DNA of 64,000 bases from Larus michahellis (taxonomy: Eukaryota > Chordata > Aves > Charadriiformes > Laridae), in NCBI RefSeq assembly GCF_964199755.1, contig NC_133907.1, positions 5,585,001 through 5,649,000 of the forward strand, given 5' to 3'. The translations under genes and the position numbers were made by a program. Under the pieces are notes generated by a model that was not told where the DNA came from, searched no databases, and was given only the letters and a program-made list of their open reading frames with translations. Position 1 is the first letter of the stretch; every line of letters starts with the position of its first letter. Shown here in pieces: positions 53,201 through 59,037 of the stretch.

Positions 53201-56200
53201 TAGGGGTCTAGTGCATGGTGTCCCTGCCCATGGCAGGGAGGTTGGAACAAGATGATCTTTAAGGTCCCTTCCAACCCAAACTATTCTGTGATTCTATGAT
53301 GCTCATAGAATTGTTGGATTCTCTCTGAATGGAGGAGGCAGGAGCTTTACCTGGGTCACCAGTTTGTGTTTGCAGCCTTAAAAACCAAGATACTGCATGG
53401 AACAACATCCTACAGGATGGGATGGGGCTCTGGTGCATGGCAGAGGAGACGCCAGGAGAGGCTGGGGTGACGCAGAGGGGTTTCTGGAGGTGATGGGCAT
53501 GAGGTGTTGTGATTTGGGCAGGTGCTTCTGTGTGGAGTGTCTGGAGGTGTTGGTGGGGCGAGGGACGTCGGCCAAGGCAAAAGAGCAGGAGCCCTGGAAT
53601 TGCTACATGTGCCAGCCCCAGAGGAGCTACGGGGTGCTGCAGCGCCGGCAGGACTGGAACACTCGCCTGCAGGACTTCTTCACCAGCGACAAGGGACAGG
53701 AATACGTAAGGGCTGCGGGCAGGCAAGCCCAGCGCACTAGGCTGTCGGGGAGAGGGCTGCAGAGGGCAAGGCGAACAGCTGAAAATTCCTTGGCTGTCTG
53801 CCTTGGTCTCACTCATCCACCCTCTCCAAGGGTGTTGGGCTCTTGGCCCTGCAGATGCTCCCCCGAAAGTGGAGGCGATGCCTGTAGAGCCAAAGGTTTG
53901 GCCTCACAGAGCATCACAGCACTGCCAAAGCTGGGGCTTCATTGCTGTCCTTTCATTGCAGGCTGCACCCAAAATCTACCCAACGGTCCCACCAGCGAAG
54001 AGGAGACCTATTCGAGTGCTATCTTTGTTTGATGGCATTGCAACAGGTGAGGCGTTGGAAGAGCACCGTCCTGGTGGCTTACAGCACTGGATGTCAGGGA
54101 TGAATAGTTTAATGGACTCAAACTTGTCTCTGAAAGCTTGGTGGGGAGAACAGGATGAAGGGCAGGGGCATCCCCATCAGAAGGGGATGAGGGAAGGGAC
54201 TCCCATTCCTGATGGACAGGGCTGTGGAGGAGGGAGGGATGGAGAGATGGAGAGAGGGCATGGGAATTTTGCTCACAGAGGTTCCTGCTGCACTGAGTGT
54301 GGTCTCAGGTAGCTGGTTTCACTGAGAAGCAAGAGCTGTGGGCGTGCTGGTAACCGGGTCTCTGGTGAAGAAATGCCTGAGGGCGACTGATTTGACTCAG
54401 TTCACTCAGCTCTGGAGTTCTGCTTTCTGGGAGCAAACCTGCCTGGAGAAACGAGTCAAAAAATAGGTTGCTCATCCAGAAGTCCTGTTTGACTGCACCC
54501 ACCTAGGACATGCAAGAGTGGCCACATCGAGCGTCTGTGCTGATGAAGGAGACTGGGAGACTAAAGAGAGCACTGCAACCTCAGACCTCTGTCCCTTGGC
54601 AGGGTACCTGGTGCTGAAGGACTTGGGCATCCAAGTGGAGAAGTACATCGCCTCGGAGATCTGCGAAGACCCCATTGCTGTGGGCACCATGCAGCATGAG
54701 AGCAACATCACCTATGTGCACGACGTCAGGAACATAACCAAGAGAAATGTGAGCACCGCTTCTGCGGGCGGGCCGGGGAACGTGTCCCCATGACCGCGTG
54801 GGTCTCACGCCACCAGCCCTGGGAAGGGCTTGCCCCCCCTGCCCTGCTGTGGAGGAGAGACCTGCTTACATGGCATTTCCTAACTGCGTCTGTCTGTTCA
54901 CTCTAGATCGAGGAGTGGGGTCCCTTTGACCTGGTGATCGGTGGAAGCCCCTGTAACGACCTCTCCCTTGTGAATCCGGCCAGGAAGGGGCTGTACGGTA
55001 AGGCTGCTTTGCCTCTGCAGGGCTGGGTACCCCCGGGGTGTTCCCGAGGTGTGGAGCCACCTTGAAGTTCAGAGAAGTTGGTTCAGCCCCAGTCTGCATT
55101 GGTGGTGGCTTCTCTCTGACCTACAAACCATGGGATGGCACCTGCAAAGCACAGGCTGTCTCCATGCCAATCGTGGTGGGGAGGGCAGCCAGGACCCCCA
55201 GAGCTGTGCCCCCTGTGCCACAGCTGGTCCCAACCTGCTGCTCCCGTTTTGTCCCTTGTAGAAGGAACCGGGAGGCTGTTCTTCGAATTTTACCACCTGC
55301 TCAACTACGCCCGTCCCAAGGCAGGAGAGGAGCGCCCCTTCTTCTGGATGTTCGAGAACGTGGTGGCCATGAGGGTCAATGACAAGAGGGACATTTCTCG
55401 GTTTCTGGAGGTAGGGATTGCCACCGTCTTCGGGAAAGGCGTCAGAGCAGGAGACACTTGGGCTGTGCAAGGTGTGCTGAGGCTGTGAAGGTCTGGCTGT
55501 GGTTTGTTATGTCCCCAGCGCTGGAGAGCCCCTTGCCTGATGCACGCACCAGGAGTCAGCTGTTTAGTCTTGGCTCGGGATCCCCTCTGGCTTTCAGGAG
55601 GTTAACCCCAGGCACTAGTTCTCTGGGGGAGGGTTTTTGCCAGCCTTGCAGAAAGCATCTGTTCAGAGCAATGCCTGCCTTTCTAGGGAGGTCAGGGACT
55701 GGAAAGGATTTTTAACTCTGTGGTAGCCAAGATGGGCTGTGGGTCAGCAGGAACCCCCGTATGTAGAAGCTCCATTGGAGGCTGACAGCCCTGATCCTGT
55801 CCCAGAGAAATCAGCACTGAAGCGTGCTGTGATTTTCATTAGCTCCTGGCCACAGCTGTGGCGTGGTAGCCCATGTGGCCAACCTGACCGTGCTCTGGGG
55901 TGGAACAAGGGTTTGTTGGGGCTACATCCTGAGGAGGATTTGCTGAAGATTTTTAAGTTCCTGCAGTACAGCAGAGAAGGGCTTGGCGTGCAGGAGATGG
56001 CTGAGCTCGCACCTCCTCTTAACTTTTATTCCCCCCCCTCTCATGGCCTGCAGTGTAACCCGGTTATGATTGATGCTATCAAGATATCAGCTGCCCACCG
56101 AGCACGCTATTTCTGGGGCAACCTTCCGGGGATGAACAGGTAATCAAACGATCGCTGGCGTTTTGTTTTGTTTTGTGGTGCTTGCGTGGTTGGTCTTTCC

Positions 56201-59037: not shown

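Follow-up and report, generated by a model that had tools for sequence, protein, structure and literature searches.

The window, the whole 64,000-nucleotide stretch of Larus michahellis DNA that was analysed, carries a DNMT3B gene on the plus strand, with a model spanning about 39973 to 59037. A 616-residue query part of this model is 100% identical to the annotated Rissa tridactyla DNMT3B, and record P0001, which includes that part at 100% identity, displays the Pfam families PWWP, ADD_DNMT3, DNMT3_ADD and DNA_methylase: the domains of a DNMT3B orthologue (PWWP, ADD and DNMT3 methyltransferase), in order. The N-terminal exons are an exact match to the Larus michahellis record P0012; the Rissa match is slightly poorer there. 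The proposed orthology to DNMT3B rests on the best matches, which are named DNMT3B; in a tree of 226 DNMT3B/3C records, built without DNMT3A, the 120 from birds group as a single clade. Pfam recognized no family in eight long ORFs among the 58 of at least 150 aa in positions 1 to 39000, and none in the ORF at 63374 to 63670. The parts of the gene are these:

39973 to 40077, plus strand: first coding exon of the long form, beginning MSMVKSLERLEQ (100% match to P0012 residues 1-35; ends not refined)
44134 to 44271, plus strand: N-terminal exon with a second Met, MKKDKSHD (exact P0012 peptide match; ends not refined)
44986 to 45099, plus strand: N-terminal exon (exact peptide match)
46369 to 46518, plus strand: N-terminal exon (exact peptide match)
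46968 to 47159, plus strand: exon 5' of PWWP
48730 to 48888, plus strand: PWWP exon 1 (89% identity to human DNMT3B)
49653 to 49759, plus strand: PWWP exon 2
50807 to 50948, plus strand: exon 3' of PWWP (67% identity to human over 42 residues)
51302 to 51430, plus strand: linker exon
52289 to 52333, plus strand: short linker exon
52614 to 52693, plus strand: ADD domain exon 1 (85% identity to human)
52979 to 53091, plus strand: ADD domain exon 2 (92% identity to human)
53522 to 53705, plus strand: ADD domain exon 3
53962 to 54046, plus strand: MTase exon, motif I (FDGIATG)
54603 to 54748, plus strand: MTase exon
54907 to 54997, plus strand: MTase exon, motif IV (SPCND), with the catalytic Cys present in the gull (97% identity to human)
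55193 to 55261, plus strand: 5' extension of the following exon by an alternative acceptor, in frame, adding 23 aa behind the catalytic loop
55262 to 55410, plus strand: MTase exon, FF-interface helix and motif VI (FENVV)
56054 to 56139, plus strand: MTase exon, motif VIII (97% to human)
56140 to 58895, plus strand: single intron at the position of other vertebrates' loop exons; no loop sequence found
58896 to 59037, plus strand: terminal exon, motif X, GRGARQK (equivalents of 3B3 R740/R743), stop TAG (93% to human)

The catalytic-domain exons join in frame. The motif VIII exon ends ATGAACAG, followed by gtaatc, and the terminal exon begins GATCTTTGG after cgcag; when the two are joined, AG and G make up an Arg codon and the frame continues. 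The original prediction had put the exon boundaries at these same positions, 56139 and 58896, with the phase preserved, and both points are borne out. The PCN cysteine, which it called Cys611, corresponds to C651 of human DNMT3B and C710 of DNMT3A. The 69-nt extension at 55193 to 55261 uses an alternative acceptor, gcagccag/GACCC, and is stop-free; its residues also occur in the Larus michahellis isoform X1 (P0012).

Between 56139 and 58896 there is one intron of 2,756 bases, at 56% GC, in a window with no N. It is longer than each of the five introns that precede it. An active methyltransferase has its target-recognition loop here, between motif VIII and the terminal exon. The human 63-aa loop peptide, verified against PDB DNMT3B chains, gave no tblastn match in the window (best E 2.1 for the whole; 2.2 and 0.78 for two parts), and as a control the adjoining exons matched their human counterparts with 97% (E 3e-18) and 93% identity (E 8e-29). 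Profiles of 49 distinct non-bird DNMT3B loops also found nothing in the six-frame ORFs of the window (best E 2.8 whole, 0.88 and 1.7 for the halves); on the same ORFs, the flank profiles reached 5e-25 and 3e-35. The combination of tblastn with whole and split profile HMMs in six frames thus detected no diverged or displaced loop within the window, and the earlier statement that the interval holds no loop sequence stands.

The protein so encoded has a familiar human counterpart. DNMT3B3 (PDB 6pa7, 9e00) has the identical junction, GMNR/IFGF, and lacks the identical 63 residues, with PWWP and ADD present; the joined flanks align end to end with the PDB chains labelled isoform 3, as the original prediction would have it, and the bird methyltransferase domain is otherwise in frame. 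The characterization of DNMT3B3 that it had offered also agrees with published work, in which this form is a catalytically inactive accessory subunit of DNMT3A that acts as such on nucleosomes; the 3B3-3A2-3A2-3B3 tetramer resembles DNMT3A-DNMT3L, and DNMT3A is stimulated, notably in gene bodies (PMC7846833; also the accounts in PMC4853477 and PMC12876729). The human form differs in arising by alternative splicing, from a gene that yields active enzyme as well. In the bird, the loop-less form would be the only one, because no loop sequence was found in the window; active-site residues are altered in several birds.

The absence is not peculiar to this gull. A search with the loop-less protein gave 1937 matches, of which the best 120 were taken; all have bird names except the nameless P0070, the last 150 residues of which are common to kakapo. 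The loop is absent from all 120, and a further 13 bird records, added with a grouse query (turkey, Penelope, swan, cuckoo, hummingbird and crow among them), have none of the 63 residues. Together, then, 0/63 loop residues are found in 133/133 bird DNMT3B records listed. These represent about 112 species names by hand count, several species appearing more than once and P0070 being nameless; they extend from rhea, kiwi and cassowary among the palaeognaths through Galloanserae, including turkey and ducks, to many Neoaves, and derive from numerous independent assemblies, with contigs of 15 to 100 million bases in many cases. Some are homology-based models. Two are retained in the loop count of 133 and otherwise discounted. 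P0235 is a truncated model that stops at the junction, and its Ala in place of the Cys is treated as artefactual; in P0228 the sequence following motif IV is odd.

A query without the loop might preferentially draw relatives without it, and the search was therefore repeated with a loop-bearing one: the human loop was inserted into the bird protein, only the part from ADD to the end was scored, and proteins of at least 0.55 of the query length were considered. The best 120 of 2085 matches comprise 106 non-birds and 14 loop-less birds, and no loop-bearing bird protein, a second bird DNMT3B included, is among them; an intact one would be expected at the top rank. All 106 non-birds listed carry 63/63 loop residues. 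Turtles come first, then crocodilians, echidna, marsupials, placentals, squamates and a fish. The crocodilian and turtle orthologues (P0121-P0124), with 89-91% identity to the loop-bearing query in ADD and MTase, differ from those of birds in having all 63 residues and no change at 18 strictly defined active-site positions. Rodent DNMT3C is likewise a lineage-specific derivative of DNMT3B, but it is an extra copy that kept the loop (3C rows are among the 106), whereas birds altered DNMT3B itself. Since the palaeognaths lack the loop and turtles and crocodilians have it, the loss most likely took place on the bird stem, after the crocodile-bird split and before palaeognaths and neognaths parted.

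Among the 120 birds and 106 non-birds listed, the bird records show 103 changes at the 40 active-site positions and the non-bird records 35, compared with 112 and 305 for the rest of the domain (132 sites), on a bird subtree 3.2 times shorter than the non-bird one; the contrast of birds with non-birds gives Fisher p 4e-23 for active site versus rest and 3e-11 for active site versus FF block, values that are a guide to size and not exact probabilities, because changes (Fitch counts on a FastTree tree, not strictly independent events) were treated as independent and the residue classes (active site, FF, RD) are an assumed assignment after DNMT3A structures. The strict set of 18 positions gives 29 changes in birds and 8 in non-birds (p 3e-8 versus FF, to be read in the same way). 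Set against tree length, these are 29 in birds (1.84), 0 in 17 non-avian reptile records (1.82) and 8 in 88 mammal records (3.64). The pattern stays when passerines and parrots are left out (strict 25, FF 5, RD 76 changes) and is weaker in the 50 insert-free bird records alone (strict 8, FF 2, RD 23), where the active site shows 0.61 changes per site and unit length and the rest 0.49. The insert in question, 19-73 residues after the catalytic loop, is present in 70 of the 120 bird records listed; many such records may be homology-based models, and the insert was for that reason left out as evidence of relaxed catalysis. The active-site test was also rerun without the exon edge that bears it.

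Throughout the 106 listed non-birds there is no variation at the catalytic Cys, the PCN Asn, V758, the RAR arginines or, one gap apart, the motif I Asp. At D641, 10 of the 120 listed birds have Ala (nine named parrots plus P0070) and 4 have Glu or Asn; at N711, 10 have Asp, of which 8 are passerines; Met replaces V758 in 18, and Gln replaces R790 in 3. The catalytic Cys, found in 106/106 of the non-birds, is lost in six bird species: king vulture, kagu, an Atlantisia rail and Penelope have Ser in its place, and two sandgrouse records lack Cys-Asn (the source of one marks it as low quality). An invariant catalytic Cys and invariant SAM-site residues are thus not a property of birds as a group; this gull has both. 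The original prediction took the gull's Cys, ENV and RAR as a sign that the loss was recent or that the assembly had a local deletion. As active-site residues have changed in several other bird lineages, with the rest constrained, their retention in one species is no evidence of recency.

Other parts of the protein have been kept. Residues F731, F732, F734, Y735, L738, F772 and L773 (DNMT3A numbering), taken here, after DNMT3A structures, to be the FF interface, are invariant in 120/120 listed birds, as a DNMT3B3-like protein would have them. The FF block of 24 positions has 5 changes in birds and 31 in non-birds (FF versus rest p 0.11, not significant), and at equal tree length 5 in birds and 2 in non-avian reptiles; fold conservation alone could account for part of this. 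Within birds, FF changes least (5 in 24 sites, compared with 112 in 132 for the rest, 103 in 40 for the active site and 86 in 24 for RD). For the 24-site RD segment, those 86 changes compare with 14 in non-avian reptiles at equal tree length. It is this comparison with reptiles that indicates, at the level of protein sequence, release of the active site and RD segment from constraint in birds, with relaxed catalysis, and an FF block as conserved as in reptiles. The four residues F236, W239, W263 and D266, presumably the PWWP cage, are invariant in 133/133 listed birds. In ADD there are 0.78 changes per site in birds and 4.17 in non-birds, for which the tree is 3.2 times longer.

One further contact is more equivocal. 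In human DNMT3B3, R740 and R743 make the contact with the acidic patch of the nucleosome (PMC7846833; likewise the account in PMC12876729). R740 is present in 116/120 listed birds (Cys or His in 4) and R743 in 119/120 (His in 1), and the gull has both. Because the RD neighbourhood is relaxed, nucleosome anchoring in the human manner is not strictly kept, and no firm prediction is made.

The company that DNMT3B keeps in birds also matters. DNMT3L, according to PMC7814119, is absent in birds and present in many reptiles; PMC6976628, to the contrary, has it restricted to eutherians and some marsupials. The former is preferred because it cites an alligator DNMT3L. Like the form proposed here, DNMT3L is a catalytically inactive DNMT3 relative that stimulates DNMT3A (as described in PMC7814119 and PMC12876729); it differs in being a separate gene without PWWP, one that PMC7814119 does not place in birds. 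Bird DNMT3B has PWWP, and its best matches are named DNMT3B, which points to DNMT3B orthology. The DNMT3A mRNA of chicken retains its loop, to judge by two primer pairs from the literature that have an end inside it, with spacings of 234/234 and about 192/194 nt relative to an assumed human stretch.

For DNMT3B of chicken, PMC3086922 reports strong expression in early embryos and primordial germ cells, and an mRNA (NM_001024828) with an 851-aa ORF and a methylase match at 569-657. Grouse P0106, which lacks the loop, has the same length of 851 aa; its PIRVLSL lies at 568, and motif IV is followed by a long insert. Length and domain positions suggest that chicken DNMT3B has the layout of the grouse protein. 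In chick limb cells, where Dnmt3a is also expressed, over-expression of DNMT3B raises and silencing lowers global methylation, which the authors read as DNMT3B catalysis (PMC7275052). An accessory factor would do likewise; the effect described there is compatible with an accessory role or with activity of its own.

One way to dispose of the missing loop is to suppose that the assembly has a local deletion or that this gull lost the loop recently. This was the caution of the original prediction, and the length of the intron, greater than that of the five before it, might seem to favour it. But not one of the 133 listed bird records, from many independent assemblies, has a loop residue, the loop persists in crocodilians and turtles, and no N occurs in the window; the distribution across the listed bird records leads to rejection of both the assembly gap and the recent loss. 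A broader version starts from the fact that some GC-rich bird genes are absent from assemblies, and supposes that all birds have the loop exons in a stretch that assemblies systematically miss, so that bird DNMT3B is a normal enzyme. This is very improbable: the intron reads through at 56% GC, without N; a loop-bearing query brought up no loop-bearing bird among the best 120 of 2085 matches; the active-site changes, loss of the catalytic Cys among them, are unexpected for a working enzyme; and the chicken ORF of NM_001024828, at 851 aa, has the length of the loop-less grouse protein with its insert, so that length and domain positions suggest a loop-less chicken form.

Other readings accept the loss and differ over what remains. 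The altered active-site and RD residues in several lineages could be those of a decaying gene heading for a pseudogene, but a PWWP cage invariant in 133 listed records, an FF block nearly invariant across 120 and a slowly changing ADD make this extremely unlikely, as do the expression of chick DNMT3B (reported in PMC3086922) and its effect on methylation (reported in PMC7275052). A scaffold is easier to entertain: bird DNMT3B would be a chromatin-bound reader of H3K36me3 and the H3 tail, independent of DNMT3A, with the catalytic fold as a structural remnant. The invariant cage, the well-conserved ADD and the strongly relaxed C-terminal RD segment would suit such a protein, and FF is conserved no better than in non-avian reptiles. 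FF is nevertheless the least changed of the four parts of the catalytic domain, and DNMT3B levels affect global methylation in the chick (PMC7275052); the scaffold is on balance unlikely, while deserving some weight.

The reading preferred here, at a probability of roughly three in four, is that avian DNMT3B is a constitutive, genome-fixed DNMT3B3-like protein that serves DNMT3A as an accessory subunit, much as DNMT3L does, in birds, which have no DNMT3L. This retains part of the original prediction, a genome-encoded DNMT3B3-like protein in a lineage that PMC7814119 describes as lacking DNMT3L, and drops the recent loss or assembly deletion. The pattern of change is what would be expected of a partner that binds DNMT3A and does not catalyse, probably a permanent non-catalytic helper. 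The loop coding sequence was lost in frame, most likely on the bird lineage after the crocodilian split and before that of palaeognaths and neognaths; the chromatin readers PWWP and ADD stayed, as did the FF residues through which DNMT3L and DNMT3B3 bind DNMT3A; the loop-less protein would no longer read or methylate DNA by itself; most likely as the outer subunit of a 3B-3A-3A-3B tetramer, it would bring DNMT3A to chromatin and stimulate it; and DNMT3A would be the sole active de novo methyltransferase of birds. The sequences themselves show the loss, its spread among the listed records, the relaxed active site and the conserved FF and PWWP cage residues; from these we infer inactivity, DNMT3A binding, stimulation and the replacement of DNMT3L. 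For the takeover itself, in which DNMT3L disappeared and DNMT3B lost its loop on the bird stem, leaving DNMT3A with a PWWP-bearing pseudo-enzyme partner in all birds, the balance tips only modestly in favour.

In the open-access literature searched, no statement was found of a missing loop in bird DNMT3B. Yokomine et al. 2006, who reportedly cloned the chicken DNMT3 genes, may have remarked on it earlier, and PMC3086922 refers to a supplementary alignment of chicken DNMT3B. Chicken DNMT3A and DNMT3B are listed as conserved methyltransferases in the accounts of PMC7814119 and PMC8941758, and functional work such as PMC7275052 takes chick DNMT3B to be an enzyme. DNMT3 accessories without catalytic activity are a known kind; new would be a DNMT3B3 form fixed in a whole vertebrate class.

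If DNMT3B did take over the part of DNMT3L, this would help to account for the low methylation of bird sperm, described for chicken in PMC7814119, and for the lack of extra gene-body methylation on expressed chicken genes, for which PMC8941758 asks about a differing PWWP affinity; the PWWP cage residues do not differ in birds (133/133 listed). Bird epigenetics has so far assumed two de novo methyltransferases, and should bird DNMT3B prove dead, the results obtained on that assumption will have to be read anew. Crown birds are well over 90 million years old, and over that time birds would have carried out a natural experiment, one that turned a splice form known from humans into the sole form found.

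DNMT3B and its downstream flank contain three further features:

51950-52150, repeat-like stretch, seen by eye in the intron preceding the 52289 exon of DNMT3B
55193-55261, + strand, alternative in-frame acceptor creating a 5' extension of the MTase exon (23 extra residues)
63374-63670, candidate MAPRE1 (EB1) start, 3' of DNMT3B, from the resemblance of its peptide

By eye, the intronic stretch resembles the CR1 retrotransposon consensus at its 3' end. The downstream fragment found no family match in a Pfam search; by its peptide it resembles the start of MAPRE1, the usual neighbour of DNMT3B.

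The 23-residue extension directly follows the catalytic loop, and Larus michahellis isoform X1 (P0012) carries it too. Among the matches listed, 70 of 120 bird DNMT3B records have an insert of 19-73 residues at this site and 105 of 106 non-bird records have none, counts to which annotation habit may contribute. In a catalytically active protein, extra residues at this point would be unusual.

R882 of human DNMT3A is a leukaemia hotspot; the equivalent DNMT3B position is naturally Cys in Halcyon and Hemiprocne, and His in Corythaeola and Piaya (records P0073, P0079, P0099 and P0109). Eight passerine records (P0102-P0105, P0111-P0113 and P0118) share four changes at sites conserved elsewhere: PCN, the motif holding the catalytic Cys, becomes PCD, accompanied by I643V, H873P and R891G (DNMT3A numbering). 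From these substitutions, it is as if the DNMT3B active site had decayed furthest in these passerines.
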